From Gemmatimonadota bacterium (GTDB lineage Bacteria; Latescibacterota; UBA2968), in NCBI GenBank assembly GCA_026706845.1, contig JAPOXY010000057.1, forward strand, positions 1-54,659: 54,659 bases of DNA, read 5' to 3'. Both the position numbers and the translations under genes were made by a program. The notes under the pieces are model-generated. The model was not told the origin of the DNA. It did no database searches and saw nothing but the letters and a program-made list of their open reading frames with translations. Positions 17,791 through 37,860 of the stretch are shown here, piece by piece (within the stretch, counting starts at the first letter, position 1; the number at the start of each line of letters is the position of its first letter).

Positions 17791-17855
17791 CGCTACCTCT
17801 TCTTTTCGGTAACACGCATCTCTCTCCTGAGTTTCCGTCCGCCATCCGCTGGCTG

Positions 17856-18686: not shown

Positions 18687-18698
18687 CGCGAGCATCCT

Positions 18699-19562: not shown

Positions 19563-19589
19563 CACACGCTGTCTCCTGACCTGCATACG

Positions 19590-20964: not shown

Positions 20965-22203
20965 TTATAGCTCGTCTGAGTTCTGGTGTGCAGTCGGTAG
21001 CGGTCCAAATCGCTTGACGGCGTCGCTTCTATCCACGATATCCGGCACCTGGACCGGCCTGCCCTCGTAGATCGACTGCACCGCACAGATCGCCCCGGCG
21101 CAGGACCGGGCGCTCTCATAGACGTTGCACGGCGGCTGATAGTCCTCCAGGATGGCATTCACCAGATCGAGGTCGGCCAGGTACTCTGTGCCGCCGTGGC
21201 CCACCCTCCTGGAGATATCCTCATCCACAATCAGCGGCGGCACTTCGATTTTCACCATCCCGTGTTCCGACTGCTCCTTTGAAGCCTCATCCTCCTGTTT
21301 GACGGACATCGTGTACATCCACCCATAAACGCCCCTGCTATAATTCGGATCTTCGTCGACAAAGCAACCATAGACACCCGGTCCATCGGGAGGAGGGGGC
21401 ACACGGCCAGAGGTCTCCAGCGTGCCCTTCGTCCCGTACACGGCGGCATACTCTATCGTGGGCCGCTTTGGCCCCTTTGAACAGACGCATCGGGCAATTG
21501 CACCGCTCGCCGTTTTGAAAAGCGCTACTTCGTGATCGTACACCTGTCGATAGGGCATATTCTTCTTGTTCCCGTACCCGAACACCTCGACGAATTGTTC
21601 TCCCATCAACCAGTACGCATTATCCACGGCGTACAGACCACCGCCGGCGCTGATCGATCCCTGAGCCAGTTCTCCCAACCCCCATCGGAAGGTCGGAGAA
21701 CCATCCTGCCGGATGGTAATTCCCTCAATGTCATGGACATATTCCGTCTCTACATAGTAGATTTCTCCAAGCTTCCCCTGTTCGATCAACCGCTTCATAT
21801 GCACCGTAGGTGCCATCCACCGGAGCTGATTGTCCATCTGGACCTTCAGATTGCGCCTTTCAGACATATACACAATCTTCCAGAGCGTCTCCAGGGACTG
21901 GTTCTCCATTGGCACCTCAACCATAACGTGCTTCCAGTGGTCCAGTGCTGCCAGGGTGTGCTGCCCGTGCAAGTGGCAGGGTGTGCAGAGGGCCACCAGG
22001 TCCACATCCTTTTCGGCGAGTACATCGGCGTATCGAGTGGTCCACTTGCCAATGCCGTGTTCCTCTGCTGCGGACCTGGCCCGCTCCTCAACGACGTCGC
22101 AGACCATCACCACTTCCGTCTGGTCGATGTACTCGTTGAACACCCGAACGTGTGACCTTCCATGGCCCATCCCGACCACAGCAACCTTCAATGTCTTTGC
22201 CAT
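20965..22203 (-). CDS. Gfo/Idh/MocA-family protein lacking EKP and DxxxH (paralogue A)
   Basis: A 412-residue protein with an N-terminal Rossmann fold (VVGMGHGRSHVR, 9-20; acidic CDV at 35-37) and the Gfo/Idh C-terminal domain. At the usual EKP position it reads EVP (96-98), so the conserved lysine is a valine. Where family members have DxGxH it reads SAGGGLYAVD, with no aspartate and tyrosine for histidine. The first 30 residues, the CSPCH/CTPCH loop and the PMEN motif are shared with the protein at 28167-29363. It is directly upstream of the sugar-binding protein gene (13 bases), in the importer transcript. It may be a dehydrogenase using different residues, or a non-redox enzyme or sensor. 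Confidence 0.88.
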   Translation of the reverse strand: MAKTLKVAVVGMGHGRSHVRVFNEYIDQTEVVMVCDVVEERARSAAEEHGIGKWTTRYADVLAEKDVDLVALCTPCHLHGQHTLAALDHWKHVMVEVPMENQSLETLWKIVYMSERRNLKVQMDNQLRWMAPTVHMKRLIEQGKLGEIYYVETEYVHDIEGITIRQDGSPTFRWGLGELAQGSISAGGGLYAVDNAYWLMGEQFVEVFGYGNKKNMPYRQVYDHEVALFKTASGAIARCVCSKGPKRPTIEYAAVYGTKGTLETSGRVPPPPDGPGVYGCFVDEDPNYSRGVYGWMYTMSVKQEDEASKEQSEHGMVKIEVPPLIVDEDISRRVGHGGTEYLADLDLVNAILEDYQPPCNVYESARSCAGAICAVQSIYEGRPVQVPDIVDRSDAVKRFGPLPTAHQNSDEL

Positions 22204-22256
22204 CGCCTGTTTCTCCTTTGATCAAGGTCAACCGCCCAAGCGCGTGCCATATAGCT

Positions 22257-24272
22257 TTAGTCTGCGTGGATATGGTGGCCGCTACCGGGAAACCAGATCG
22301 CATCCACGAGAATTGTCAGGGCGACTCCCAGCGCCCAGCCGACCAGGATGCCGATAAAAAACGGCCTGGACCGCCTGTAGAGCGCCGCGTCCCCGATCTT
22401 CATAAAGATCCATTTAAACGCCCAGGCCAGAAAGATGGAAAAGGTCATTCGGTAGCTGAAATAGGTGGATGAAATCGCAAATCCAATCGGATGGATCGGC
22501 CAGCCCGGAAACCGGTACCGCAGGAACGTCATCACTGCCATAACCCCGGCGCCGATCCAGAAGAATTGCAGCTTCTCCCAATCGGTCGGGAATGGCGATT
22601 GCATATACACGACCACGTCGTTGAGGACCTTCGGCGCAGCGGAATTGATCTTCCAGGAGTTAAAGTTGTAGGCCCCGTGGGCATACCCCAGATAAAGGGT
22701 TCCCCACACCGAGCAGAGCAGAGAAACAAATAGCGCCAGGCCGGTGCAGACCAGAATTCCCTTGCGGGAACGTGCGGCCACATCCGCCACCTTCCCCACA
22801 TGCGTCAGCACCGGCATGAACAGCCCCGTCCCACGGGCCACTAAAGAGTATGTGAAGGCCAGGGCGGTCAGGCTGGCCCCCGAGGTTGTCTCGGTCCCCA
22901 GCACATACAGCGTGGAATACTGCGCCGTCATGGGTGCTCGCACATAAGCCAGGCCGGTCTCGACCACGATCCTCGACACTCCGATGTATATGACGAGAGT
23001 AGAAACCGTCAACACCAGGGCCATCTTGTAGCTCATTCCCGCGCTGTGCAGCCATAAGAGAATGAATACTATACCCAGAATAAATCCAAAGACGGCGGTC
23101 CGATAAGACATCATCTCGTCGCTGTTCCCGGCGAGACGTGCATCTCCGAAGGCACTGCGCACCATATTCCTCAGGTGGTGCCGCGCCGTCCACAGCACCC
23201 AGAACACCATACACCAGAATGCCCCCCAGCACTGCCAGCCGGTGGCCGCGCTGTAGGACGACCAGTACGCCCCCTCCCCAGCGCTGTAGCCGATGCGGTT
23301 GAAGATGGAGGCCTCGACAATAAAGATCAGAAAGAAGAACCAGATACTGAACAGCACCTCTAAGTTCGCAAAAAAACCGAACGCCATCGCAAAAAAGTGG
23401 ATGTTCAGGTTTATACCCGGCGCACCCGGGTAAAGAACGACGTTTCCCCCACCCAGGGGAATGGCCGGGAGGCCCGGGACAAGATAGGTCAGGATGTTCC
23501 AGCAGACGATCCCGAACGGAATCACCGCCCCGGCCCAGAACAGCTTTCCACGCATAAATTCCGGCTTGAAGCCAACTGCTCCAGATTTTGTCGCCATCTC
23601 GATTCCGACACTCACCAGGGGGTAGCCCAGTTTCTCGTGATGGATCCACTGTCTTCTCAATGCCACCACGATGCACGCCGAAACCAGCGTCACCGCCGCG
23701 ATGAAACAGACCCACCAGAATAGGGGGATCACCCACACTTCCCAGGGAATACGTTCCCCTGTTGGCAAACCCTCGAAAAACCACGTCATCGCACCGGTCT
23801 GGTCGGATGGGGCCAGCCAGTCAGAGATGTAGTTGTGAAAATATGGCTCCCATCGGTTCTCCGGCGAGGCAAAGTAGTACGGAGAGGAAATGATCGCCAG
23901 CCAAAAGCCCGTCAGTTGCCATGTCGGCAACACGCTTCCGGCCATCACCATCGCCAGGATGATCAGCAGTTCGAAGGGCGAAAGCGGGCGCACAAAACCC
24001 AGACGACCCAGAACGACGTTCAAAATAACCAGGACCAGGAAGCACAGAAAGGCAATCAAAGGAAAATGACTCAAGTTGAGATACGAGGAGCGAATCACGT
24101 ACTCATCATAGGTCAGAAACAGACTGGCGAAGGCCGCGAAGAGAACGCCCAGAATCACCGATCTGGTTGTAATTCCCTCCTTCTTCGCGGGTGAGGACAG
24201 GTGCGCCTCATCTACGGCAGTCGATTCAATCGTCGCCCTGGAGGGAACAAAAACTGGTTCTCGGCTATTCAT
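22257..24272 (-). CDS. Large polytopic membrane protein, DUF6785/DUF6784-like
   Basis: A 671-residue inner-membrane protein with about 12 or more hydrophobic helices, a polar N-terminal tail of about 35 residues, and sequence such as LTYDEYVIRSSYLNLSHFPL and SRIVVETGLAYVRAPMT. I recognise the general pattern of the DUF6785/DUF6784 proteins, which are frequent in Planctomycetes and related metagenomes beside sugar catabolism genes and resemble oligopeptide transporters in size. Function is unknown. It lies 49 bases after the RraA-like gene and 53 before a Gfo/Idh gene, so it may be a second transporter in the block beside the ABC importer. Only a weak ribosome-binding site (AGGTT) precedes the ATG. 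Confidence 0.65.
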   Translation of the reverse strand: MNSREPVFVPSRATIESTAVDEAHLSSPAKKEGITTRSVILGVLFAAFASLFLTYDEYVIRSSYLNLSHFPLIAFLCFLVLVILNVVLGRLGFVRPLSPFELLIILAMVMAGSVLPTWQLTGFWLAIISSPYYFASPENRWEPYFHNYISDWLAPSDQTGAMTWFFEGLPTGERIPWEVWVIPLFWWVCFIAAVTLVSACIVVALRRQWIHHEKLGYPLVSVGIEMATKSGAVGFKPEFMRGKLFWAGAVIPFGIVCWNILTYLVPGLPAIPLGGGNVVLYPGAPGINLNIHFFAMAFGFFANLEVLFSIWFFFLIFIVEASIFNRIGYSAGEGAYWSSYSAATGWQCWGAFWCMVFWVLWTARHHLRNMVRSAFGDARLAGNSDEMMSYRTAVFGFILGIVFILLWLHSAGMSYKMALVLTVSTLVIYIGVSRIVVETGLAYVRAPMTAQYSTLYVLGTETTSGASLTALAFTYSLVARGTGLFMPVLTHVGKVADVAARSRKGILVCTGLALFVSLLCSVWGTLYLGYAHGAYNFNSWKINSAAPKVLNDVVVYMQSPFPTDWEKLQFFWIGAGVMAVMTFLRYRFPGWPIHPIGFAISSTYFSYRMTFSIFLAWAFKWIFMKIGDAALYRRSRPFFIGILVGWALGVALTILVDAIWFPGSGHHIHAD

Positions 24273-24321
24273 AACCTATCTGCCCTAATGTCCATTTTTT
24301 TTCATCGTGGGCGGTAATAAC

Positions 24322-24981
24322 TCAAACGATAAACTTCAACTCGCTCTCTTTTCCAGCACCCACCTTCGCAGAATGTTCCTCAAAATTCAACATGTCAAGC
24401 AGGCTCACCCCCTCTTCCATCTTTGTGAGCAACAGCCCTTCCTTTTTCTGGATATCCTCGGCAATCGGAATAGCCTTTGACAATTCAGCGGTGGTTGCCA
24501 CAACAACACCATCGTCGTCGCCGAAAAGAATATCACCCGGATGCACGATCACGCCTCCACACGAGATTGGTATTTGTGTCTCGAATATCTTGGAAGTGGT
24601 ACCGGCAACGGGATAGATTGAACGGGCATAATACGGAATAGGTAAGGTGCGTATCTTTGCCGTATCCCGGCAGGGACCGTCGATGACGACGCCAGCCAGT
24701 TGCTTGCGCATGGCCTCAGTCGGAAACAATTCGCCCGTCAGCGCCCTGCGACTGCCCTGGGAATCGATGACAAGAACCTCATCCTGCTCGGCGTCTCTCA
24801 GCGCTTTGACGACCGTAAGAAAGTCTTCGTGGCAGGTCACAGTGTGTGCACGTCCGATGAGCTTGAGGCCAGTGGTGATTGGACGAATGGCAGAATCGAC
24901 AGCCCTGAGGTCCTTATTGGCATCACATATGCACGCGGTATCGAGAAGGGACAGACGCCGCTTGATCTCTTCAAAATCCAT
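24322..24981 (-). CDS. RraA-like aldolase/decarboxylase family protein
   Basis: A 219-residue RraA/HMG-aldolase family protein. These are metal-dependent class II enzymes that cleave 4-hydroxy-4-methyl-2-oxoglutarate or decarboxylate oxaloacetate; the plain RraA members regulate RNase E. The signature is GELFPTEA followed by GVVIDGPCRDTAKI (R105, D106), and the C-terminal DILFGDDDGVVV motif is present. The ATG at 24981 has AGGAGG eight bases upstream. Position between PhyH and a membrane protein, in a catabolic block, favours an enzymatic aldolase/lyase role. Confidence 0.85.
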   Translation of the reverse strand: MDFEEIKRRLSLLDTACICDANKDLRAVDSAIRPITTGLKLIGRAHTVTCHEDFLTVVKALRDAEQDEVLVIDSQGSRRALTGELFPTEAMRKQLAGVVIDGPCRDTAKIRTLPIPYYARSIYPVAGTTSKIFETQIPISCGGVIVHPGDILFGDDDGVVVATTAELSKAIPIAEDIQKKEGLLLTKMEEGVSLLDMLNFEEHSAKVGAGKESELKFIV

Positions 24982-25010
24982 CAAATTGACCTCCTATTTT
25001 ATTTTTTTCT

Positions 25011-25853
25011 TCAATTGTCTTCCCATAGATCAAGACCTAATAGTGTTCGTCCCAGGGGAGACAATTTTGCTGTCAGGCCAAGTTCGTGTTCCTTTTCTTT
25101 CCGGAGTTCCCAGCGCTTACCGGTTACTTCGATAACCAGACCCGCCAGGCGATCTCGCCAGGCCTCAATCCGATGGTCCCGTGCTTCTTCATCTTCTTCT
25201 TGAGCGGGATACATAGTGATGTATTGCGCTACTCTCGGAAGATCGGCCGTATTTGGACTGCTTCCATGAGGCAACGCACTGTGCCAGATAATGAGATCTC
25301 CCGCCCTGCCTGGAATTGACCGCACGCCCAGACTTTCGATATCCTGCTGCCGGGGGTCGGCATCCGGCGGCAGGTCCTTCAGCCACGCCTTGATCTTTCG
25401 GTGAAAGCCGGGCACACAGGAGAACGCCCCCTGGTTGGGGGCAGTATCCGTTAGATAGAGCACACCCTGTACCCAAAATTCGATCGGCAAATCCAACGAC
25501 GTATCCCAATGGAACCTGCCGGAGTATTTCCAGTCGTCCCGTTCCGGTGGATTCATACTGGCTCTATCGATGCTAACCCACAGCTTCTTCGTCCCAAAAA
25601 TCTCGGCGAACGCCCGATAGACGCGGGGATTCTGGCGGTTGTTCCAGAGGGTCTGATCCTGGTACATTTCGACCATAATACTCGCGCGGGGAGGATTCGG
25701 GTACCAGCTTTCTGGATGATCGGGACTCATCCCCAGAAAATCCCAGACTTTTTGTTCGGCTGCTTTGACCTGATCTGGGGGAACGGCATTGGGAATAACA
25801 ACATAACCGTTCTCTTCCCAAAAGGTTCGGTCTCCTGTGCTTAAGATGGACAT
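25011..25853 (-). CDS. Phytanoyl-CoA dioxygenase (PhyH) family protein
   Basis: A 280-residue Fe(II)/2-oxoglutarate-dependent hydroxylase family member. The iron facial triad is HWD (H115, D117) and the distal H196 in WHSALPHGSS, with R207 placed to bind 2-oxoglutarate. The N-terminus FWEENGYVVIPNAV is typical of PhyH. I use the ATG at 25853, which has AAGGAG nine bases upstream; an earlier start at 25907 overlapping the M20 stop would add 18 residues of low similarity to the family. Bacterial PhyH proteins hydroxylate diverse small molecules; the substrate here is unknown. Confidence 0.88.
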   Translation of the reverse strand: MSILSTGDRTFWEENGYVVIPNAVPPDQVKAAEQKVWDFLGMSPDHPESWYPNPPRASIMVEMYQDQTLWNNRQNPRVYRAFAEIFGTKKLWVSIDRASMNPPERDDWKYSGRFHWDTSLDLPIEFWVQGVLYLTDTAPNQGAFSCVPGFHRKIKAWLKDLPPDADPRQQDIESLGVRSIPGRAGDLIIWHSALPHGSSPNTADLPRVAQYITMYPAQEEDEEARDHRIEAWRDRLAGLVIEVTGKRWELRKEKEHELGLTAKLSPLGRTLLGLDLWEDN

Positions 25854-25903
25854 TCCCTCAATCTCCTTCACTGTGGCGGCCGACGACTCTTCCGCCACAA
25901 CCA

Positions 25904-27277
25904 TCAAGCATCTGCAAATTCATACAGAAGCGCAACCGCCGACTTTTCGCATGCCCGCAGGCCCTCCACTTCGAAATACTCGTTAGGGGCGTGCAATAAC
26001 CAGCCGTGACCGAGTCCCGACATCACAAAGGGCATGTTCAACGGGGGCTCGCTGAACAACACTTGCGGAGCCGTTCCAGGTAATATAGGCACAACTCCAG
26101 GCTCGGCGTCTAATCTTCTGAGGGCTCTGACAGCGGCTTGCGCGATATGCTCTTTCGGCGATGTCCTGGCCGGATCGTATCCGGTCACAAATCTCAGTTC
26201 GATGTCGCCATACCCATGCCGGTCCAGGTGGGCGCGTACCTTGTCCAAAATCTCCTGGACAGTCATATCCGGCACCAGCCGGATGTCTATCTTGCACATC
26301 GCCGAAGCAGGCACAATCGCCTTGGGTCCGGGCCCAGTGTAGCCGGACAGAAAGCCGTCGATATTCAGGCCAGGCGCAAAAATCGCTTCTCTGACAAGAT
26401 CCAGGCCATCAAGCCCTTCACGGAATTCCGTAATACCGTACATCTCCTTGAAGGCACGAGGGCCCCAGATATCGAGCAGATCGGTGAGCAGGCGCTCATC
26501 ATCCTCAGTGGGAAGCCGTACATTCTCATAAAAACCATCAATCACAATTCGATCGTCGGCCCCGCGCATAGAATTAAGTGCCCAGATCAGTCGCCACACC
26601 GGGCTGTTGACCACAGGCCCGACCATGGAATGCGCATCAGTCGGCAGTGTTTTGACTGCCAGCTCAAAATAGGCAATGCCTTTGAACCCCAGACTTACCT
26701 GCGGATGGCCTTTAACGGTCTCCAATGGGAGATGGTAGTACATCGCATCGGCCGTCTTCAACTCATCTGTGTACTGCTCAATAAACTGAGGCAGATGCCG
26801 ACTGCCCAATTCCTCCTCACCGTCTATGAGAAAAATGAGGTTGACGGGCACATCACCCGTGACAGCCTGAATAGAATGGACGGCGTGAATAAAAGCCATC
26901 AGCGGTCCCTTGGTGTTTATGGCACCTCGGGCAATGATACGGCCATCCACAATCCTGGCCTCAAAGGGCGGCGAATCCCAGGCCTCCAGCGGATCTACCG
27001 GTTGGACGTCATACATGCCATAGACCAGAAGGGTGCGATCGCTATTGCTGGACATCAAATGGCCGTACACTACGGGATGACCGCCTTTCAGAGGGACCAG
27101 CCTCGCGTCTGCACCCAGGTCTCGCAGCATCTCTGCGGTCATTTCGGCACACTTCTGTATCCCCAAATTCTCCGTTGAGATGCTGGGTTGGCGAAGATAG
27201 CGTTGCGTAGCTGCCAGATGATCGTCGAAATGTTGATCAACATATTCGAAAATCTGTTTAAGTGTATCCTCTGCCAT
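25904..27277 (-). CDS. M20 family dipeptidase-like protein with altered metal ligands
   Basis: A 457-residue protein with the overall M20 (ArgE/DapE/CPG2) layout: catalytic domain with an inserted dimerisation domain. The catalytic glutamates are in IDGEEELGS (E154, E155), and the C-terminal metal histidine region is LLHAPNEY. Several usual ligands differ. The first HxD motif reads GMYDVQP with M88 in place of histidine. The bridging aspartate segment reads RGAINTKG with N121. The region usually ending ISD reads ADAMYYHLP. These changes may define a divergent subfamily or an inactive or differently metallated enzyme. It starts 22 bases after the SDR gene with AGGAGG upstream. Confidence 0.82.
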   Translation of the reverse strand: MAEDTLKQIFEYVDQHFDDHLAATQRYLRQPSISTENLGIQKCAEMTAEMLRDLGADARLVPLKGGHPVVYGHLMSSNSDRTLLVYGMYDVQPVDPLEAWDSPPFEARIVDGRIIARGAINTKGPLMAFIHAVHSIQAVTGDVPVNLIFLIDGEEELGSRHLPQFIEQYTDELKTADAMYYHLPLETVKGHPQVSLGFKGIAYFELAVKTLPTDAHSMVGPVVNSPVWRLIWALNSMRGADDRIVIDGFYENVRLPTEDDERLLTDLLDIWGPRAFKEMYGITEFREGLDGLDLVREAIFAPGLNIDGFLSGYTGPGPKAIVPASAMCKIDIRLVPDMTVQEILDKVRAHLDRHGYGDIELRFVTGYDPARTSPKEHIAQAAVRALRRLDAEPGVVPILPGTAPQVLFSEPPLNMPFVMSGLGHGWLLHAPNEYFEVEGLRACEKSAVALLYEFADA

Positions 27278-27299
27278 TTTAACGCCCTCCTGATCAAAT

Positions 27300-28127
27300 C
27301 TACGGATACATTTTGTCCTCTAATGCATGCTCTGTCGGCAGGTAATCGCATGTCCCCCGGCCACCATCCACCAGGATAACCTCGCCGGTGATAAAGCGCG
27401 CGGCTGAGGATGCCAGAAATACAACGATCCCTGCGACATCCTCCGGCTCTCCGATGTGCCCGAGGGCAACGCGCTCGGCCTGTGCCTTTTCAACGCCGGG
27501 CGTGAGCGCATCGCCCCAAATGTCGGTCCGAATCGCACCGGGTGCCACGGCGTTGACTGTAATCCCATACTGTCCCAGATCCCGGGCACAACACCGGGTA
27601 AAGGCCTCCATCGCACCCTTGGAGGCGCTGTAGGCGGCTCTCGCAATCCAGCCCAGGCGGGCGTTGAGCGAACTGATATTGATGATCCGTCCACCGTCCC
27701 CAACATCGACCATAACCCGAGCCGCGATTTGCGTGCAAAGAAAGCACCCCCGGGCATTCACCGCAAAAATCCGCTCCCAATCGGCATCGGTTGTATCGAG
27801 AACGGATACGGCGACATCTATACCGGCGTTGTTGACCAGAATATCGATACCGCCAAAACGTTGAACCGCTGCATGGACCATGGCCTCCACCGCTGTGCGA
27901 TCCGACACATCGGCCTGGATCGCCATAGCCTGTCCTCCATCCCGCTCAATCTCGATCACAGCACTTTCGGCCGCCTGAGCATGGGCGGCGTAGTTGACCA
28001 CCACCGCCGCACCCTGGCGCGCCAGTTCTCGGGAGATCGCCCGGCCGATTCCTCGTCCCCCGCCGGTCACCACGGCAACGCGATCTTCCAGACCTTGAAG
28101 AGGGAATGGTTTTGTATCGTTCTCCAT
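27300..28127 (-). CDS. SDR family oxidoreductase (FabG-like)
   Basis: A 275-residue classical short-chain dehydrogenase/reductase. The nucleotide motif is VVTGGGRGIGRAI, followed by NNAGIDVA. The catalytic serine (NISSLNARLG) and the YxxxK pair (AAYSASKGA) are intact. The C-terminal FLASSAARFITGEVILVDGG is typical. It would oxidise or reduce a hydroxyl or keto group of the block's substrate with NAD(P)H. GGAGG precedes the ATG. It is 39 bases downstream of the Gfo/Idh paralogue B gene. Confidence 0.93.
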   Translation of the reverse strand: MENDTKPFPLQGLEDRVAVVTGGGRGIGRAISRELARQGAAVVVNYAAHAQAAESAVIEIERDGGQAMAIQADVSDRTAVEAMVHAAVQRFGGIDILVNNAGIDVAVSVLDTTDADWERIFAVNARGCFLCTQIAARVMVDVGDGGRIINISSLNARLGWIARAAYSASKGAMEAFTRCCARDLGQYGITVNAVAPGAIRTDIWGDALTPGVEKAQAERVALGHIGEPEDVAGIVVFLASSAARFITGEVILVDGGRGTCDYLPTEHALEDKMYP

Positions 28128-28166
28128 AATTCCGGCCTCCAGGACAATTTATGAAAAATCGGCACC

Positions 28167-29363
28167 TCAAAGCTCCGCACTCGACGCTTCCCCATAGGGC
28201 AGTGGATAGAGCGGTTTCATCTCATCGTGTCGATCCGCAATCTGTGGGATAGAGATCGGTCGATGCGCCACCTTCGACTCGTTGACCGCAACTGCTCCGG
28301 CACATGTGCGCGCCGCTTCATAGACATTGATTTCCGACATACAATCGTTCTCGATCGAGTGGATCAAGTCCATCCAACTGAAGAATTCCACACCGCCATG
28401 CCCCACCTTCCTGACCATATCTTGGGTGATCCACTCCGGTAGTGGAACTGGCGGCACCTCAATCGGACGCATCTCGTAAGGCCCGGTATAAGGCTTGGGT
28501 CCGGCGCCGTCCTCCACCAGACATCCGTAAAGTCCCGTACTGTCCGGGGGCGCAGGCAGATACCCCGTAGATTCGATCGTGCCCTTCGTACCCCACACCG
28601 ATTTTGTAATTTCCTTGTAGGGACGCCTCGCTGCCTTTGAACACTGGACCCGTGCAATCGCCCCGGAGGCCGTCCGAAACAGAGCCACATCGTGGTCGTC
28701 CACGTTCCGGCTGGGCAGATTCTTGCGATTGCCGTAGGCAAAAACCTCCGTGAAGTCCTCTCCCAGAAACCACCGGGCCGTGTCCACAGCATAGATACCC
28801 GCTCCGGCAGACACAGATTCCTGTGCCTTCACCCCGTAGCCCATCCGAAAACCCTCTTTTTTCATGAGTCCGCCTCCGCCCTGCTGCCGAATATCCTGTA
28901 AATATTCGCAGATCACGTAATAGATTTCCCCCACATGGCCATCGTCGATCAACTGCTTCATCTTCACTGACTCCGGGATCCACCGGTCCGGGCAGTCCAT
29001 CTGGACCTTCAGATGCCGGCGTTCGGCCATCGTGATAATTTTCCAGAGCCGTTCCATGGACTCGTTTTCCATCGGCGTCTCAACCATCACATGCTTGCCG
29101 GCATCCAGCGCTGCCAGCACCATCTGCCCGTGGATATGACAGGGCGAACAGATACACAGAATGTCCAGGTCCGTGTCCGAAAGCAAGTCCGCGTAATGCG
29201 TGGTTGTCTTGCCTATGTCCAGTTCTTTAGCCGTGTTCTGCAGCCGCTCCTCGTTCACATCACAGATCACAGCGCACTCGGTCTGCTCAAGGTATTCGTG
29301 GGTTAGACGAACATGGCTTCTTCCGTGACCGAGCCCGACCACACCGACCTTGTAAGTCTTCAT
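28167..29363 (-). CDS. Gfo/Idh/MocA-family protein lacking EKP and DxxxH (paralogue B)
   Basis: A 398-residue protein with Rossmann motif VVGLGHGRSHVR (8-19) and CDV (34-36). The EKP position reads ETP (95-97), threonine replacing lysine, and the DxGxH region reads SAGAGIYAVD with tyrosine for histidine. It shares the GHGRSHVR, SPCHIHGQ and PMENES motifs with paralogue A, indicating duplication. The ATG at 29363 has GGGAG eight bases upstream; a GTG five codons earlier overlaps that site. It is the first gene after two hairpins at 29396-29534, so its expression could be controlled by readthrough. Confidence 0.88.
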   Translation of the reverse strand: MKTYKVGVVGLGHGRSHVRLTHEYLEQTECAVICDVNEERLQNTAKELDIGKTTTHYADLLSDTDLDILCICSPCHIHGQMVLAALDAGKHVMVETPMENESMERLWKIITMAERRHLKVQMDCPDRWIPESVKMKQLIDDGHVGEIYYVICEYLQDIRQQGGGGLMKKEGFRMGYGVKAQESVSAGAGIYAVDTARWFLGEDFTEVFAYGNRKNLPSRNVDDHDVALFRTASGAIARVQCSKAARRPYKEITKSVWGTKGTIESTGYLPAPPDSTGLYGCLVEDGAGPKPYTGPYEMRPIEVPPVPLPEWITQDMVRKVGHGGVEFFSWMDLIHSIENDCMSEINVYEAARTCAGAVAVNESKVAHRPISIPQIADRHDEMKPLYPLPYGEASSAEL

Positions 29364-29395
29364 TTCCAGCACTCCCACCTTTAAATGAATTCCTC

Positions 29396-29456
29396 AAAAA
29401 AAACTGGTGTCCCTTGGATATCCGTTTGATTCAAGAATACGGTCAAGGACCACCAG
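29396..29456 (-). terminator. Hairpin plus U-run just before the Gfo/Idh B gene, terminator or attenuator
   Basis: On the minus strand CTGGTGGTCCTTG (29456-29444) pairs with CAAGGGACACCAG (29416-29404) at 11 of 13 positions across a 27-base loop. Eight T follow at 29403-29396. The run ends only 32 bases before the ATG at 29363, leaving no room for a separate promoter downstream. Confidence 0.5.
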
Positions 29457-29491
29457 AAAAAAATGAGGACAGAAATACGAGAACAGTCCGC

Positions 29492-29534
29492 AAAATCAAC
29501 ACCGGGGGTTTGGATCTCTCCATGCCCCCGGCGT
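29492..29534 (-). terminator. GC-rich hairpin after the PorV/PorQ gene
   Basis: ACGCCGGGGG (29534-29525, minus strand) pairs with CCCCCGGTGT (29508-29499) with one wobble pair. A modest T-rich tail (TGATTTT) follows. It lies 23 bases past the PorV/PorQ stop. The weak U-run suggests partial termination. Confidence 0.5.
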
Positions 29535-29556
29535 TAGGCATACCATTACAGACGCC

Positions 29557-30495
29557 TCAGAACGTCCCGTTCACCGTGAATCTCAAAGGTGCGTTGAAGA
29601 ATTTGCTATGGGTGTAAGCGATATCTACACTGAGCGACGCCGCACCGAAAGCCCGCTTGAGCCCGGCGCCGACGCTGAAATCCTCGGCGTCGTAATTCCA
29701 CTTGTATCCCCCCCTCAGTGCCAGTGTATTGGCCAACCACAGTTCAGCACCCATGTGAACGCGTCCTTCGTAATCAATCGCAAACACGTTCTCTGCTGAA
29801 AGTGTTAGATAAGTGGGATCTCCCACCTTCCCGATCACCTCCATGGCCCCGGCGATTGTGTAAACCACCGGCATAAAAGAGCTCTCTGCGATAACGGTGT
29901 TGTCCTGCCCAAAGTTCTTCAGGGTCATCGCTAACCGGAAAGACTGGAAACCAGTGTAGAAAAGCGTACCGACGCTGGCGTCAAAAGTCGTATTCGAATC
30001 TTCGAACAGAGACTCTTGAAGGTACCTGAAGTTTGCACCGAAAGAGAGCCTATCGGTGAACTGGTAGGCATAGGCAACACCAAACGCGATGTCGTCCCCC
30101 TCTACCATCTTGCCGGTGCCCATGGGTTCGAAAATGGTCGTCTCCTCAAATGGCTTCGTCCGAAACGACACCATGCTGATCCCGAAGACCGAAGCACCGA
30201 AACGATAAGCCACGGCACCCGAGTAGAGTTTTGAATCGGCAAACCAGCGATTGTAAGAAAAGGTATATGCAGCCCTCTCGATGTGGGTCAGGCCAGCCGG
30301 ATTCCAGAAGATGCTATTGATATCGTTAGAAATAGCCATATACGCAGATCCCATCGCCACAGGGCGAGCCGATTGGCCAATTTTCACAAAGTAGAACCCG
30401 GTCGTGCCCAGTTTCTTGAAGATGGCCTCTGCATCCACGGCCAGAAGCGGCCCCATCAGTGCGGCCAAAGTGGCTATCAACAGACTGCGTCTCAT
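29557..30495 (-). CDS. PorV/PorQ family outer-membrane beta-barrel
   Basis: A 312-residue protein with signal peptide MRRSLLIATLAALMGPLLAVDA followed by the PorV/PorQ opening GTTGFYFVKIGQSARPVAMG, then AISNDINSIFWNPAGL, which is strongly characteristic of the family. The rest alternates hydrophobic and polar residues as in a 14-strand barrel and ends with a phenylalanine (NGTF), as many BAM substrates do. In Bacteroidetes PorV shuttles type IX secretion substrates; PorV/PorQ-like barrels also occur without that system. The ATG at 30495 has AAAGGAGG seven bases upstream. It lies 28 bases after a large secreted protein with a T9SS-like tail, which could be its client. Confidence 0.85.
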   Translation of the reverse strand: MRRSLLIATLAALMGPLLAVDAEAIFKKLGTTGFYFVKIGQSARPVAMGSAYMAISNDINSIFWNPAGLTHIERAAYTFSYNRWFADSKLYSGAVAYRFGASVFGISMVSFRTKPFEETTIFEPMGTGKMVEGDDIAFGVAYAYQFTDRLSFGANFRYLQESLFEDSNTTFDASVGTLFYTGFQSFRLAMTLKNFGQDNTVIAESSFMPVVYTIAGAMEVIGKVGDPTYLTLSAENVFAIDYEGRVHMGAELWLANTLALRGGYKWNYDAEDFSVGAGLKRAFGAASLSVDIAYTHSKFFNAPLRFTVNGTF

Positions 30496-30523
30496 TTTTA
30501 TGCCTCCTTTCATGGTCGCACGG

Positions 30524-32740
30524 TTATTTGACAATCATAAATGTCCCTGTCTTCTTCTCGCCCTCGCTCCCCGGCATCAGCGACTCCACCACGAAGAAAT
30601 ACTTTCCCGTCGAGACCTTCGACGCGAAATTCAGTACCACCTGATTCCAACTCGTCTCTCCCCGAATCGGGGACCTTGTCCGCACCGGGTTATCGACCAC
30701 CGCGACCAGATCTCCAGAGACGGTAAAGATCGAGATCTTGCACCTTCGGGGCACATTCACAAATCGGATCTCTTCGCTACCGCCCGGGTAGCGGTGGATG
30801 TCGTCGAGTCTGAATGGGTTGGGCACCACAATCACCGGATCCTCGAATCGGTCTTTCTTATCGGAGGCCACCACAAAGGGTATGCTTTGCAGGTGCGTCC
30901 TCGTTTCGGGCGCGCCGTGACCACTCTCCAGGGAGGGAATCGCCATTCCTGTGCCGTTCCAGTCGGTGTGCCCAGTGTCGTAGCTTCGGACAGAGTACCA
31001 ATAACTGAACCCCGCGAGCGAGGAGGCATCCTTATAGCTGTGCGTGCCGGTCTGGAGGTCCACCAGAAGCTCCCAGGGTCCCATAGATGTGAGTTCTGAC
31101 CGGTAAATCCGATAGCCAGCTACATCCCGCGCCTCGGCGGTCCCCATATAGTCGGGGTCTTCAGCGGCCTCTGCGTCGGCAGACCAGGACAGCAGGTTGT
31201 TCCCGTCCTCGTCGCTTTCCACCGTGAATCTGATGTCGGGCGGCGCGTCGGGGATATCGTAGTTGTTGGCGTAGGCAAACCGGGCCCGATCCAGGTGCTG
31301 GGCCAGTGCCCGTTCACCGTCGGGCACCTGAGCCTGAGCTCCCGGCTGTCTACTCCATCCAAAAATGTCCACTGTTTCTCCTGAGCTTGCAAATTCGGCT
31401 CCGGTGCCAGCTACCCAGGCCACCACGACCTTGGCTTTGTCGCCGGGGCCCAGATCGTAGGGACCATAGGTCTGAGCGAAGCCCATGTTCATAAGCTCTG
31501 TGGGATTGTCCTGGGGGTGCTTTGGCGAGATGGGGCGCATTCCCTGCCCGGTCATCTCCAGGTAGATCTCCTCGTCGGACATAGGATGCTCCGGCGTATC
31601 GATGTCGTCCAGGCTGCGGATTTGCCACCAGAAGGGGAAGGCTGGCTGGTCGGGATTCTTCGGTGCTACATAGACCTCGTCGTCCTGGGCGAACCCGTCG
31701 GTCGGATCGGCGTCTAACAGGGCCAGCCCGATATACTGAAATGCCCGGAGCTGCCCTTCCTTGAGGAGGCCGGAGTTTCGGACATTGCCCGGGGCCTCGG
31801 CCAGCCGGGCAGGCTCACCCGTGTCATCGGCCTGGTCAAAGGGGTAGTCGCCGTCATAGACGTACTGGATCTTTTTTCCTCTCAGATCCGCGTGGCCATC
31901 GAAATTGGGCGCTTCGCTGTACTTGAACCAGTCGTCCTGCACCCGGGGGCTCACATCCTCCCAGCCGCTGGTCCAGCCCGTCCACATATGCCCTGCCCGG
32001 GAGACTCTGGGCAGATTGAAAAATGAAAGGTATGTATCGTTCAACTGCTTCGTCCCGGTATTCTCCAGAATGACCTCTTGAATGATGAAGTCGTCGTAGT
32101 CCGGGTAGCCCCACGCTTTGGCCTTTCGAGTCACGACAATCCCGGTTTCGGTGCCCCACTGCGTAATCAGGATTTCTTCGGGTTGGGTGTCGTTGGGAAT
32201 GTACCGGTTGTAGTCGAAGTTGTGGATCTCCGTCACATCGTTGACCACCGGCGGTGCTCCTGGCCAGTAGTTGGCCGTCACTGCTCCAGTCGCCGGAGAG
32301 ACCGTCCGTACGCCCAGGTCTTTCTCAGGACCGGCGGAGGCATCGTAGGTCATCGGCACGATATCCTCTGTGACTATCCGGGGATTGGACATCGACACAT
32401 TGTAGAAGCCGTTCTCGTCCTTTGTCAGCACATAGATCCCCTCTCCCTGGCTGGTGTGGGTCGAACGGTCCGCAAAGTCGATGCTCTCCTTAACTCCCCA
32501 GTAGTCTTCAAAGTCTCCCTCCAAAATGGGAGCACCGGGGTACATCAAGCCCGCGTCCCACAGTCTCGTCCAGCTCCTGGTCATGCCCTCGGTCTTACCC
32601 TGGATGCCGTTGCTGCGATAGCCCGACCAGAGCAGTCCCCGGGTCAGGTTCCGCATCGGCGCAGCCTGGGCCCAAAGGCTACACGGCAGGAACAACAGCG
32701 ACAGCACCACAGGCCAGAAGCCTATTCTCACTATTCGCAT
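30524..32740 (-). CDS. Large secreted protein with T9SS-like C-terminal domain
   Basis: A 738-residue exported protein with a clear signal peptide (MRIVRIGFWPVVLSLLFLPC...AQA). I do not recognise the first ~480 residues. A fibronectin-like segment follows (VAGYRIYRSELTSMGPW ... YWYSVRSYDTG). The C-terminal ~90 residues begin VVPNPF and include ISIFTVSGDLV and STGKYFFVVE, ending MIVK. That pattern matches type IX secretion or FlgD-like sorting domains (NP...G.....G.Y). AAGGAGG precedes the ATG. It lies between the TonB receptor and PorV/PorQ genes, so it may be a surface-displayed partner of the receptor in place of a SusD lipoprotein. This role is inference. Confidence 0.75.
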   Translation of the reverse strand: MRIVRIGFWPVVLSLLFLPCSLWAQAAPMRNLTRGLLWSGYRSNGIQGKTEGMTRSWTRLWDAGLMYPGAPILEGDFEDYWGVKESIDFADRSTHTSQGEGIYVLTKDENGFYNVSMSNPRIVTEDIVPMTYDASAGPEKDLGVRTVSPATGAVTANYWPGAPPVVNDVTEIHNFDYNRYIPNDTQPEEILITQWGTETGIVVTRKAKAWGYPDYDDFIIQEVILENTGTKQLNDTYLSFFNLPRVSRAGHMWTGWTSGWEDVSPRVQDDWFKYSEAPNFDGHADLRGKKIQYVYDGDYPFDQADDTGEPARLAEAPGNVRNSGLLKEGQLRAFQYIGLALLDADPTDGFAQDDEVYVAPKNPDQPAFPFWWQIRSLDDIDTPEHPMSDEEIYLEMTGQGMRPISPKHPQDNPTELMNMGFAQTYGPYDLGPGDKAKVVVAWVAGTGAEFASSGETVDIFGWSRQPGAQAQVPDGERALAQHLDRARFAYANNYDIPDAPPDIRFTVESDEDGNNLLSWSADAEAAEDPDYMGTAEARDVAGYRIYRSELTSMGPWELLVDLQTGTHSYKDASSLAGFSYWYSVRSYDTGHTDWNGTGMAIPSLESGHGAPETRTHLQSIPFVVASDKKDRFEDPVIVVPNPFRLDDIHRYPGGSEEIRFVNVPRRCKISIFTVSGDLVAVVDNPVRTRSPIRGETSWNQVVLNFASKVSTGKYFFVVESLMPGSEGEKKTGTFMIVK

Positions 32741-32839
32741 CTTGAAACCTCCTTGTGATAATAAGGAGCGCCTGGGATCGGGCCACAGCCTGTGTCCGCC
32801 TCAATCCCAAGCCCTGAGATATAAAACAGAGTTGACCTG

Positions 32840-35800
32840 TCAGAAGGACACCATCACTCCCAGCTCGATCTCTCTTGGAAACCCGGCATATCGGCTCAGT
32901 TCTCCGGTATCGCCGAACTGTTTGTACGTGCCGCTGTCGGGCCTTGGCCGATCCAGACCGTTTTTCCACCAGTCCTCAGCCGGCCTGGGCTGTAGATCGC
33001 GCTGGTTAAACAGGTTCCTGACGTTGAAATAGAATGTAGAGCGCACCTGGTTGCGGATCTGGAACCGCTTCACAAAGGCCAGGTCGGTCCGGGTATGCAT
33101 AGGTCCGAACCACCACTTCGGTGGCTCGCCAGGCAGTGCGAACCGCCTAGCCCTCCCCTCCTGCATCCGATAGACCATCGTGACGCTGATGTCGCCCCAC
33201 ACCGGTCCATAGTCCGTCGGCGAGTGATAAACAAACACCACCGATCCGAAACCCGGCCGTTCGGTCCCAAAAGTCCCCTGTGCTGTGTTCCGTCCCCGGG
33301 GGTTTACGTTAAACTGTTTGTAGGACCACATGCCTGGCCAATCCTCCATTTCTTTGATCTCGGATTCCTTGAGCGGGTCGTAGTCCGCCGCGGTGCCATT
33401 CTGTATGGCCCGGAGCCGTTCGTTGGCCCGATGGCCGAATTCCTGGATCTCCTCAGCGGTCAGCAGCACCGGTACTTCCGCTCCGGAATCGCTGCTGTTC
33501 ACCTGCCCGTCGCCGTTGGTGTCCCGGGAGTGCGTCACATAGTAGTTGGATCCGGTGGCGACCCAGTTCGAGTCGGGCACAAAGTAGGTCCTCCACCACC
33601 CGGACTGGCGTGCGGCCGACACCCACTGCTTATTGTACGAAACCAGGAATGAGAACCCGTGGCTGAGATTCTTCCTCAGCGACAGTTCGATGCCCCGGAC
33701 GTCCTCATAGGAGTTATTCCTCCAGTCGGCCCCACCGCGTTGGGGAGCCTGCTTCTGCGGGTCCCACCAGTAGCTATTGCCGTAGAAGAACTGATCCGTC
33801 CCACTCTTGTAGAAGACCGTCAGAGAACTTATGTAGTCCCCGACAAAGTTCCAGTCGGTCCCGACCTCGAAGCTGGTGGTCGTTTCATACTTAATGTGGT
33901 TCCAGAATCCGGACCAGTCCCGCGAGTCCGACTGGTTCCCGACCTCTGTCGGGTCGATCTGTCCGTTGTTGTTGAAATCCGCTGCCCGGGCTCGACTAAC
34001 CCATCCGTATTGAGCGATGTACCATGTGGAGGGCAACTGGCGGAACACTCCGAAAGAGTAGCGGATCGTAGCTCTGTCGGTGATCGGGTGTGAGACTCCA
34101 ACCCGGGGACTCCAGGCCTGCAGGGCCTTGGCATCCACCAGAGGGATGAGCTGTTGGCGCGTCCACGATTTGGTCATCGGCGCCATCGACCAGAGTCCGT
34201 GTTCGCCCTGAGGCACCTGGGTGCCCCAATCCAGTCGGTCATAGCGAGCGCCCACGTTCAGGACCAGCCCGTGAAACTCCATCTTGTCCTGGATGTACCA
34301 GGACGACTGGATGGGTTCCCACGGCGTATCCCTGGTATATGGCTTCCCGGCCACGCGCAGGGCAAAACTCGTCATACTTCGCCAGCGTTCCCATACGGTC
34401 AGCACCTTGTCGAACGCGACCTCAAACCCACTTTTGACGAAGTGCCCCTTTGTGATCTGGCTGGAGAAATCGAGCTTGAAGTTGACCCGTTCTCGCTTCG
34501 TAAGCTGATACTCGGTTCTCGTCGAGGGAGCGGCCGTGAAGTAGCCGTCCGCGTCCCGGCGAATGTCCTCGGTAATGCCTTCTCCGTATTGATCTACCGG
34601 TACGTTGGTGGTGTCCTGGTTATCTCGGAAAAAGGAAAGCTTCGCCTCGTAAAATGTCTTGGGCGTCAGGATGTGGGTCAGCGATACATAGACCAGGTCG
34701 TTTTTATACTTGACCTGCCCGGCCCCACTCCCCTCAGGGAGAAAGATGTCGCGGCCCAACTGCCTTCTGGCGCCTGAGCCTCCCCAGTAGCTTCCTGAAC
34801 GGCCGTAGATGCCCCCCACGCCCACCTTGAATTTTGAGCGCGCGATCCCGGTCAGTTTGTAGGAGGTCTCAATGTTGCCAGGAGAGGCAATCCAACCCGA
34901 TTTTCGGTCTGGGTAGAGGTAGAAGCCGCGCTGTTTGCCCTCTGGAAATATCGCCGCCAACCCCCGATACCTGGCCGAGGTAAAAAAGGAGGCATTTTCG
35001 ATCACCGGTCCGGATAGAGTCCCCTCTATGCGGTGGCCGATCACGCCGGTGTAGTCGATCCGCTCGTGCACCCTCCGTCCGGTCACCGGATCGGTTTCGC
35101 CCGTCCAGTTCGAATCGTTCCACTTCATCTTATCTTGATAATAGGGGCTGTCATAGACATTGCTGCCCCAGTGCTTTTTCCCGGCCGGATTCAACAGGTA
35201 ATCCAGGCTGCCGTGGAAGTCCCTGCTCCCTTCTTTTGTCACAATGTTGACAACACCCGCCTGGGCGTTGCCGAACTCAGCCTCCATCCCGCCTGTAACC
35301 ACAGCGAGTTCCTGAACAGCACTGGAGTTGACGCTCTGAAAATTTCGGCTGGCGTGCGACCGCCGCTCCACATTGACTGCAGACATGGGTACTCCATCGA
35401 CGTAGTAAACCACGTCACTGCTCCCAGAGCCAGATGACGACGTGTCTCCACCCCGGATCGACGTGTCTCCGTCCAGACCGACCCCGGCCAAGAGCTCAAG
35501 CACCTGTTCGGTGTCCTTGACGATGGGAGCGACCTCCTCGACGTTGGAGTTGTCCAGGATGTATTTGGTGGTTGTCCTATCCGGCTCTACTGGAGGCCGC
35601 TCAGCAACGACCACGATTGCGGTCATCTCCAGGGCGGTCTCCTTCAGGGTAAAATCTACAGTTGTCGTGAAGTCAGCGATGGCCTGGACGTCCGTCTTGG
35701 AAATCTGATCGTAGCCGATCATGGACGCTGTCAGCGTGTAGGTCCCCGGATTCACCAGCAAGATCAAGTAGTCCCCATCTGGCCCTGTGGTGGTACCCTG

Positions 35801-35965
35801 TGAGGTGCCCTCGATGATCACATTTGCCCCGGGCAACGCCTGACCGTTGCTGTCCACGATCTGACCTTTGATCTTTCCCGTGGTTCCGGCAACTGCCTGC
35901 TCAGAGGTCACCGAGAACAGCAGCAGAAAGGCGAATACAATCCAGAAAACACGATCACTCTTCAT
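32840..35965 (-). CDS. SusC-like TonB-dependent receptor
   Basis: A 1041-residue outer-membrane receptor for energised uptake. The signal peptide ends near AVA. A carboxypeptidase-regulatory-like domain (GQIVDSNGQALPGANVIIEG) spans about 30-110. The plug follows, with LAGVGLDGDTSIRGGDTSS and VVYYVDGVPM, then a long beta-barrel ending with aromatic residue F (GVMVSF). Domain order is that of SusC/CirA receptors. No SusD homologue is adjacent. AAAGGAG precedes the ATG. It is 30 bases after a small barrel-protein gene. Together with the PorV/PorQ and secreted proteins it forms the outer-membrane part of the block; the ABC importer supplies the inner-membrane step. Substrate unknown. Confidence 0.92.
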   Translation of the reverse strand: MKSDRVFWIVFAFLLLFSVTSEQAVAGTTGKIKGQIVDSNGQALPGANVIIEGTSQGTTTGPDGDYLILLVNPGTYTLTASMIGYDQISKTDVQAIADFTTTVDFTLKETALEMTAIVVVAERPPVEPDRTTTKYILDNSNVEEVAPIVKDTEQVLELLAGVGLDGDTSIRGGDTSSSGSGSSDVVYYVDGVPMSAVNVERRSHASRNFQSVNSSAVQELAVVTGGMEAEFGNAQAGVVNIVTKEGSRDFHGSLDYLLNPAGKKHWGSNVYDSPYYQDKMKWNDSNWTGETDPVTGRRVHERIDYTGVIGHRIEGTLSGPVIENASFFTSARYRGLAAIFPEGKQRGFYLYPDRKSGWIASPGNIETSYKLTGIARSKFKVGVGGIYGRSGSYWGGSGARRQLGRDIFLPEGSGAGQVKYKNDLVYVSLTHILTPKTFYEAKLSFFRDNQDTTNVPVDQYGEGITEDIRRDADGYFTAAPSTRTEYQLTKRERVNFKLDFSSQITKGHFVKSGFEVAFDKVLTVWERWRSMTSFALRVAGKPYTRDTPWEPIQSSWYIQDKMEFHGLVLNVGARYDRLDWGTQVPQGEHGLWSMAPMTKSWTRQQLIPLVDAKALQAWSPRVGVSHPITDRATIRYSFGVFRQLPSTWYIAQYGWVSRARAADFNNNGQIDPTEVGNQSDSRDWSGFWNHIKYETTTSFEVGTDWNFVGDYISSLTVFYKSGTDQFFYGNSYWWDPQKQAPQRGGADWRNNSYEDVRGIELSLRKNLSHGFSFLVSYNKQWVSAARQSGWWRTYFVPDSNWVATGSNYYVTHSRDTNGDGQVNSSDSGAEVPVLLTAEEIQEFGHRANERLRAIQNGTAADYDPLKESEIKEMEDWPGMWSYKQFNVNPRGRNTAQGTFGTERPGFGSVVFVYHSPTDYGPVWGDISVTMVYRMQEGRARRFALPGEPPKWWFGPMHTRTDLAFVKRFQIRNQVRSTFYFNVRNLFNQRDLQPRPAEDWWKNGLDRPRPDSGTYKQFGDTGELSRYAGFPREIELGVMVSF

Positions 35966-35995
35966 ATTCTTCTCCTTTTATTAACAGGTTCCGGA

Positions 35996-36691
35996 TCACA
36001 TATAAAACTTCACTCCAGCCCCGATGTCGAACAAGTGAAACGGATGGGTCTTTTTCACACCCCAGTTCAGGAAAGGCCTGAGTTCCCCAACGATCACATT
36101 GTAACTCACACGCAGGTCCAGGGCAGCCTTCGGTCCCAGGAAGATCTGCATCCCAGCCCCACCGCTTACACCCAGCGCTGTCCGCGTATCGTCGATCGCC
36201 TCCAGGAGCAGGGTCTGATCCAGCGTAGCTCCCCCTTGTTCGGGAAAGATGAGTCCGCTCACCTTAGAATGGTAGTTGTGGAACCCGGCTCCAACGGTAA
36301 GATAGGGAATGCTTCCTTCGCCTTCGAACTTCTTATCCTTTAAGGCGAAAAGCCAGTTGACCACCAGGCAGTTAAAGGTCATATCGGACTTGGCCTGTGG
36401 ACTTGTGTAGTCCCTTCCATCCTTGAACCGAAACGTCCGCTCTTCGAGACTGCCGCCCGCAAACTTCGAGTAATAATACTCCACTTCCACGATCCGTGCC
36501 GGACTGGTTACAAAGTGCGCAGCAGCCCCAAGCTTGAATCCCTCGGTGTACATATCCCTGAAGTTAAACAGCGGCGAATAAAGCTCGGCGAATACGCCGA
36601 ACCCCCCTCTGTGGCCCTCTTCCTGAGCCACAGCAAAAGCCGTGGGCGATAATACCCACAAAAGAATCCATAAACCCATGATCCTTCTCAT
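35996..36691 (-). CDS. Outer-membrane beta-barrel protein of unknown function
   Basis: A 231-residue exported protein: signal peptide MRRIMGLWILLWVLSPTAFA cleaved near VAQEE, then alternating beta strands such as GVFAELYSPLFNFRDM, RIVEVEYYYSKFAGG and ALDLRVSYNVIVG. It ends AGVKFYM. The pattern fits an eight-strand OmpA/OmpW-like barrel. I start at the ATG at 36691 after AGGTGTTT; a GTG two codons earlier is less likely. It lies between Gfo/Idh C (50 bases upstream) and the TonB receptor. Function is not recognisable. Confidence 0.75.
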   Translation of the reverse strand: MRRIMGLWILLWVLSPTAFAVAQEEGHRGGFGVFAELYSPLFNFRDMYTEGFKLGAAAHFVTSPARIVEVEYYYSKFAGGSLEERTFRFKDGRDYTSPQAKSDMTFNCLVVNWLFALKDKKFEGEGSIPYLTVGAGFHNYHSKVSGLIFPEQGGATLDQTLLLEAIDDTRTALGVSGGAGMQIFLGPKAALDLRVSYNVIVGELRPFLNWGVKKTHPFHLFDIGAGVKFYM

Positions 36692-36741
36692 AAACACCTA
36701 CTTTGAAAACACGCAGTCATTTTTCGATCAACCCACTCGTC

Positions 36742-37860
36742 TCAGATGATCTCCCTTTCCGGACCCAGCCGATTGTAAAACTGGGGGATATAGACCTTCC
36801 GGCCTCCCTCGTTGATCGAGATTAGCGAACTGATTGCCGCAGCGCAGCTCTTTGCCGCCTCATAGACGTTGATAAATGGCAGTCTGTCGTCTAATATCGC
36901 GTCCACGAAGTCGCGGCAGTTGTGGTACGTCCCGCCGCCGTGACCGGTTCTTTTGGCAACCTCGGCATCCAGTTCGAGCCCCACCAACTCCAGGGGCTCA
37001 ATCTCTCCGGGAAGCCCGCTCTCCTCCTGTGCATGTGCAATACCGAGCACTCCATTATGCCGATCTCCCTCAACGGCCGCCCTGGTGCCGTATAGCGACT
37101 TGTAGAGGTTGCAGCCGGGCCAGGCCATCGCCTTGCAACAGGCAATCTTTACCGTCACTCCACCGGTTGTCCTGAAAATTGCCGTCTCCCAGTCGTTGAC
37201 TGTCCGATATGGCGAGTAAATGCGGTTTCCCAACCCGACCACCTCGGTGAAATCCTGCCCGATGATCCAGCGGATGTCGTCGATCGCGTGAATGCCGCCG
37301 CCGGAAGAGATGCTCTCCTGCGTCGTCGTACCGAACCCATCCCGCCAGGTCTTTTTCCCATCTCTTACAAACAGGTACACCAGGCTGTGTGTATATTCAG
37401 ACTCGGCGTAGCATACCTCGCCGATTGTGCCATCTTTTACCAGCCGCCTCAGGGTGATCGTGCGTGGATCCCACCGGCTGTTCTGCTCCATGGCCAGCTT
37501 CAGGCCCGTTCGCTCTACCGCCTTGACGATTTCCATGCACTGGTGCAGCTTGTCGGCATTCTCCACCATCGGAATGGTCGTCAGGATGTGCTTTCCCGCC
37601 TCCAGGGCCGCCAGACACTCATCTCCGTGGCGAAATCCCGGCGTGCCCGTGCATATGAAGTCCACGTCCTGGTCAGCCAGCAGGTCTCCGTAGTCTGTAT
37701 AGACTCGGGGCACCCCGTATTCCCTGGCCAATTGGTTCGCTTTTTCCTCGTCTATATCGCATACCGCAGCGACATCCACTTCGTCGATGTATTCGTGGAA
37801 TGTCCTCAGATGCGACTGCCCGAATCCAAGCCCCACGATCCCCGCCTTCAAGGTAGCCAT
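36742..37860 (-). CDS. Gfo/Idh/MocA-family protein lacking EKP (paralogue C)
   Basis: A 372-residue Rossmann-fold protein (IVGLGFGQSHLR, 8-19; CDID 34-37). The EKP position reads TIP (95-97). The second motif reads SSGGGIHAIDDIRW, keeping a histidine but not the preceding aspartate. It shares the HEYI...CD opening and PM.EN motif with paralogues A and B but is more distant. Its ATG has GGAGG six bases upstream. It is the first gene of the minus-strand block, downstream of an intergenic region of 307 bases and the GntR gene, so it is likely the first target of regulation. Confidence 0.88.
   Translation of the reverse strand: MATLKAGIVGLGFGQSHLRTFHEYIDEVDVAAVCDIDEEKANQLAREYGVPRVYTDYGDLLADQDVDFICTGTPGFRHGDECLAALEAGKHILTTIPMVENADKLHQCMEIVKAVERTGLKLAMEQNSRWDPRTITLRRLVKDGTIGEVCYAESEYTHSLVYLFVRDGKKTWRDGFGTTTQESISSGGGIHAIDDIRWIIGQDFTEVVGLGNRIYSPYRTVNDWETAIFRTTGGVTVKIACCKAMAWPGCNLYKSLYGTRAAVEGDRHNGVLGIAHAQEESGLPGEIEPLELVGLELDAEVAKRTGHGGGTYHNCRDFVDAILDDRLPFINVYEAAKSCAAAISSLISINEGGRKVYIPQFYNRLGPEREII

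Follow-up and report, generated by a model that had tools for sequence, protein, structure and literature searches.

Three Gfo/Idh paralogues without the EKP lysine whose loop histidine and tyrosine align with catalytic residues of GH109 glycosidases

A gene block with three divergent Gfo/Idh paralogues

The DNA analyzed here (the window, 54,659 nucleotides in all) belongs to a Latescibacteria genome with an unusually large Gfo/Idh set, amounting to about 110 PF01408 matches. Three Gfo/Idh paralogues, referred to as A, B and C, lie in one block of the window, and a canonical member is found elsewhere in it. An earlier note on this DNA had reported these four genes. All were found where it had placed them, including the EKP and DMGVH motifs of the canonical protein, and B extends further upstream to a GTG start. 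The genes are listed below.

5301..6542, plus strand: P0001, canonical Gfo/Idh control with EKP (residues 106-108) and DMGVH, outside the system
16672..20900, minus strand: ABC sugar importer beside A (MalK-type ATPase, two permeases, solute-binding protein)
20965..22203, minus strand: gene A (P0002), GHGG-clade Gfo/Idh protein, 412 aa
22257..24272, minus strand: DUF6785/DUF6784 large membrane protein, accompanying the trio in three genomes
24322..28127, minus strand: RraA-like aldolase, PhyH dioxygenase, M20 peptidase and SDR
28167..29378, minus strand: gene B (P0003), GHGG-clade Gfo/Idh protein, 403 aa, GTG start; an in-frame ATG has its first base at 29363
29557..36697, minus strand: PorV-like protein, secreted protein, TonB-dependent receptor and outer-membrane barrel, between B and C
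36742..37860, minus strand: gene C (P0004), GHGG-clade Gfo/Idh protein, 372 aa
38168..38980, minus strand: GntR/FCD (FadR-type) regulator, upstream of C

The order within the block is the FadR-type regulator, C, the outer-membrane barrel, the TonB receptor, the secreted protein, the PorV-like protein, B, the SDR, M20, PhyH, RraA, DUF6785, A and the ABC sugar importer. The DUF6785/DUF6784 protein next to A is possibly a substrate transporter. An ARAGORN call of a tRNA-Thr at 17627-17719 on the minus strand falls inside the gene of the MalK-type ABC ATPase and is probably false; the Rfam search matched nothing.

At A, B and C the plus strand has no open frame, and the proteins are all read from the minus strand. 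Both domains of the Gfo/Idh/MocA superfamily, PF01408 and PF22725, scored over the Pfam cut-off in each of the three proteins; in the NCBIfam search of the trio, no model came near its cut-off. A shares 53% identity with B, and 42% with C over 261 residues. No leader peptide was seen ahead of the first Rossmann strand of A, B or C, and a cytoplasmic location is therefore likely for all three. An acidic residue follows beta-2 of the Rossmann domain in each protein (D36 in A, D40 in B and D35 in C); an acidic residue at this place favours NAD over NADP.

The order of the block is conserved in two other genomes of the same genus, G029 and G037. Eight further genomes of the genus were searched, and none gave a match at the threshold applied. 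In G037 (also L022), the trio stays together with the SDR, M20, DUF6785 and TonB genes; the ABC genes and PhyH were not found beside the trio there, and RraA matches only as a fragment. The motifs of A-C are kept in the orthologues of both genomes, and the dN/dS of the trio versus its orthologues is 0.05-0.18, indicating purifying selection. The divergence of A-C is therefore not decay, as the earlier note had argued, nor is it chance, and pseudogene decay is ruled out by the dN/dS values. In one Planctomycetota genome, an orthologue of A with 76% identity is found on its own, close to a GH109-type gene. A scan of genome contigs for relatives found two and no more. Among the Planctomycetota genomes sampled, 2 of 294 matched at E 1e-60, which suggests that the gene was transferred.

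Active-site residues and their counterparts in GH109

The residues of A-C at the sites discussed below are as follows.

21901..21921, minus strand: EKP site of A, VEVPMEN (V97)
29064..29084, minus strand: EKP site of B, VETPMEN (T101)
37558..37581, minus strand: EKP site of C, TTIPMVEN (I96)
21730..21747, minus strand: Tyr motif of A, TEYVHD (Y155), aligned with AmGH109A Tyr226
28893..28910, minus strand: Tyr motif of B, CEYLQD (Y159)
37384..37401, minus strand: Tyr motif of C, SEYTHS (Y156)
21622..21651, minus strand: DxxxH site of A, SAGGGLYAVD (Y191)
28782..28811, minus strand: DxxxH site of B, SAGAGIYAVD (Y196)
37279..37308, minus strand: DxxxH site of C, SSGGGIHAID (H191, His kept)
21190..21204, minus strand: GHGG loop of A, VGHGG (H336), aligned with AmGH109A His404
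28392..28406, minus strand: GHGG loop of B, VGHGG (H327)
36934..36948, minus strand: GHGG loop of C, TGHGG (H307)

The EKP lysine is absent from all three proteins, as had been noted before, and C (TIP) has lost the glutamate of this site as well. The register at the DxxxH site was fixed by the AxD just after it. In this register, the Asp is replaced by Gly in A, B and C, and the His position is occupied by Tyr, Tyr and His, respectively; none of the three has the canonical pair of Asp with His or Tyr. The loss of the DxxxH motif that had been claimed for the whole trio thus holds for the Asp, and for the His in A and B, but not for the His of C. Tyr in place of this His is a documented substitution in the Gfo/Idh family (PMC7535918). 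GxGxSHxR, CD and PM(x)EN were likewise confirmed as motifs common to all three. When A-C were aligned with characterized Gfo/Idh enzymes, the loss of EKP stood, but the GHGG loop and the EY motif, both missed earlier, were found to match catalytic residues of GH109.

At the EKP site, the GH109 glycosidases of known structure have EVP (6T2B) and EVS (2IXA), and their loops are GGHGG or AGHGG. A profile of A-C aligned with these two proteins by hhalign with 99.5% probability over 345 columns; EVP was paired with EVP, the Tyr of A-C with that of AAYIH (the Tyr226 motif), and GHGG with GGHGG. According to the title of a 2020 paper by Teze, His404 is said to sit in the GGHGG loop. Counting residues along the alignment with a constant offset of 25 gives 404 for the loop His, 226 for the AAYIH Tyr and 259 for the YPTH His. 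In AmGH109A, His404 is the proposed base at C3, Tyr226 the proposed base at C2, and His259 the proposed acid/base at the glycosidic bond (PMC10755693). A-C have the GH109-type loop with its histidine and a tyrosine at the Tyr226 position; YPTHG, with its His at the His259 position, is not found (GGGLY, GAGIY and GGGIH instead), and C alone has a His there. By superposition, AmGH109A His259 lies on SqgA His193 and His404 on SqgA His321 (PMC10755693). At this third site the register varies between direct alignments, and the equivalence was therefore derived by transitivity, through the canonical DxxxH site and SqgA. At the level of the alignment, the correspondence with the GH109 active site, with the EKP lysine gone and the loop His and the Tyr matched, is well supported. 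The earlier note had held that its reading would fall if a lysine and a histidine were supplied from other parts of the chain; this is largely the case for the histidine at the sequence level, with the GHGG His, together with the Tyr, in the aligned position. The combination of a missing EKP lysine with a GHGG loop is itself already known from GH109.

When the profile was built from A-C only and searched against the PDB, EKP dehydrogenases ranked above GH109. The AlphaFold model of A (7 sequences) had a pLDDT of 73 and a pTM of 0.75, with weak loops, and that of C a pLDDT of 52. A Foldseek search with the moderate model of A returned generic Gfo/Idh folds, and GH109 was absent among the best 50 matches listed. 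The three-dimensional position of the GHGG histidine in A-C is accordingly presumed from homology.

Phylogeny and distribution of the motifs

Trees were built from alignments stripped of the motif columns, in which the rows for PDB proteins had been copied from printed alignments. All the GHGG proteins and both GH109 structures formed one clade (support of 100/98 and 100/97 in the two trees). Within it, the YPTH-type proteins and GH109 formed one branch that excluded A-C (99/96), and A-C with the Planctomycetota orthologue formed a separate one (99/96). This second branch joins with L025-L030, proteins of other Latescibacterota (98/95). A-C therefore stand beside GH109 and not inside it; membership in GH109 proper is ruled out by this placement and by the lack of YPTH in A-C. 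A grouping of A-C with DgpA was rejected by the AU test.

The closest characterized systems differ from the trio in distinct ways. The GH109 alpha-N-acetylgalactosaminidases (AmGH109A, 6T2B, and the Elizabethkingia enzyme, 2IXA) share with A-C the missing lysine, the Tyr of an xxYxH motif, the GGHGG/AGHGG loop and the clade, but have YPTHG at the DxxxH site where A-C have GGG(L/I)(Y/H) followed by AxD. The NAD-dependent GH188 sulfoquinovosidases, such as SqgA, carry out C3-oxidation chemistry in a Gfo/Idh fold, and it is their C-terminal His321 that superposes on GH109 His404 (PMC10755693). However, SqgA keeps Lys107 at EKP and a Glu at the Asp site, and A-C have neither; the GH188 combination of EKP lysine, C-terminal His and DxxxH-site His is not found in the trio since the lysine is absent in all three. 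The DgpA-type glycoside 3-dehydrogenases (7XR9, 9M3D) were the top single-sequence and fold matches, but they keep EKP and DIGTH and have no GHGG loop. The nearest relatives of the A-C branch are the uncharacterized L025-L031 of other Latescibacterota, which lack the lysine, keep the Tyr and the loop His, and have GGGPH or AAVH at the DxxxH site; they differ from A-C in their loops (GHGS, GHQG) and in being single genes in other genera.

The association between these residues was then surveyed in 101 Gfo/Idh proteins of the window's genome (most of its Gfo/Idh genes), classed by alignment column. The EKP lysine was missing from 16 of the 101, among which 9 had both the Tyr and the loop His and 7 had neither. 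Among the 85 proteins with the lysine, 73 had neither residue, 10 had the Tyr without the His, 2 had the His without the Tyr, and none had both. The Fisher p value for lysine loss versus Tyr plus loop His was 5e-9, a figure that overstates independence because the 101 proteins are kin. In a Planctomycetota genome, from which 44 proteins were sampled with a bias toward best matches, all 7 Lys-less members had both residues; 3/37 Lys-bearing members had both by column, two of which look like true intermediates (KP, xY, GHG). The tyrosine at the position of the GH109 C2 base is kept in all GHGG members, and at least six other genes of the window's genome are of this GH109 (GHGG) type.

Several other paralogues stood out in the survey. 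L006 from the same genome, and the second gene of L166 and L177 from genome G064, keep KP yet have the xYxHD motif and a GHG-like loop; they may stand midway between the EKP enzymes and the GHGG clade. Four proteins of the window's genome (L092, L091, L122 and L111) form a second Lys-less group (ETP/EIP) without the GHGG loop; they have WENP in common and, at the DxxxH site, read (G)xYHG. Also Lys-less and without the loop in this genome are the pair L104 and L105, which read QARMAMN at the EKP site, and L051, which reads EYPAARN.

Proposed function of the trio

We consider it reasonably likely that A-C are a cytoplasmic, NAD(H)-using lineage of redox-neutral eliminative glycosidases or lyases beside GH109, within the GHGG clade; the reaction is deduced from the kinship and residues described above, and the sugar-uptake setting of the block also speaks for it, although the neighbouring genes did not point to a particular substrate. 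In such a reaction, bound NAD+ would transiently oxidize the sugar at C3, with the GHGG His as the base replacing the EKP lysine, and the Tyr (Y155, Y159 or Y156) would take the C2 proton. The group at C1 would then leave by elimination, aided by the third-site Tyr in A and B or His in C, and either water would add or the enone would be released. Re-reduction of C3 by NADH would leave the bond cleaved with no net redox change. A route of C3 oxidation, elimination and re-reduction has been described for GH4, GH109 and GH188 (PMC10628242, PMC10755693). Counting against a GH109-like reading are the PDB ranking and the Foldseek result given above, the absence of the YPTH motif, the position of A-C outside the GH109 branch and the Tyr of A and B at the third catalytic site. 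This Tyr may point to a substrate with a better leaving group or of another anomeric form, or to a reaction that stops at elimination and skips rehydration. The three paralogues would probably use different linkages or sugars brought in by the TonB and ABC systems of the cluster.

Other functions were weighed against this proposal. One alternative is net oxidation of sugars or glycosides: A-C could be dehydrogenases, such as C3 oxidases whose 3-keto-glycosides go on to a separate eliminase, and the GHGG His would do no more than take the place of the EKP lysine as base. Their best sequence and fold matches outside GH109 are indeed dehydrogenases like DgpA, which oxidize glycosides at C3, and they are accompanied by an SDR and, further along, a Zn-ADH, the usual company of stepwise sugar oxidation. 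However, DgpA itself retains EKP and DIGTH and does not group with A-C, and the invariant Tyr aligned with the GH109 C2 base goes beyond the needs of plain oxidation; we regard this alternative as unlikely. Another redox-neutral reaction via a keto intermediate, such as epimerization or the opening of an anhydro-sugar, would resemble that of RgNanOx on 2,7-anhydro-Neu5Ac. The Gfo/Idh family does include redox-neutral enzymes whose DxxxH is altered (PMC7535918), and having Tyr instead of His might serve another kind of proton transfer in A and B. RgNanOx, however, retains the EKP lysine (Lys-93) and both His of its HxxH motif (PMC7535918), and A-C instead cluster with GH109, which makes such a reaction quite improbable here.

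The lack of both the EKP Lys and the DxxxH Asp from all three proteins could also point to non-catalytic NAD-binding sensors or structural partners. Against this, another catalytic pair, one that works in GH109, is strictly co-conserved, the genes are under purifying selection, and C retains the DxxxH His, so that we give this option hardly any weight. Simple loss of catalysis was rejected on the basis of the conserved GHGG His and Tyr. The earlier suggestion of a duplicated Rossmann-fold subfamily, probably with another chemistry and possibly without net redox turnover, was therefore upheld, but not in the sense that the catalytic function was simply lost. Probably, the trio represents a divergent, uncharacterized branch beside GH109 rather than dead enzymes or a wholly new chemistry.

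Going beyond the eliminative assignment, we tentatively propose, at somewhat less than even chances, that A-C represent a new family next to GH109 that cleaves carbohydrates with NAD and without net redox change. In A and B, a Tyr would take over from the general acid/base His at the DxxxH site, and the trio, with complementary specificities, would make up a cytoplasmic set that degrades a single imported glycan by elimination.

The trio shows how readily a Gfo/Idh protein can be misjudged from its seemingly "missing" catalytic residues. Both here and in the sample from another phylum, proteins without the EKP lysine that pair the Tyr with the loop His fall into a single clade together with GH109. 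The combination "no EKP lysine + xY + GHGG" offers a testable rule for picking candidate NAD-dependent redox glycosidases from among the many proteins annotated as dehydrogenases. A-C are well suited to such tests: the set is compact and conserved, and its third active-site position occurs in two states (Tyr in A and B, His in C).
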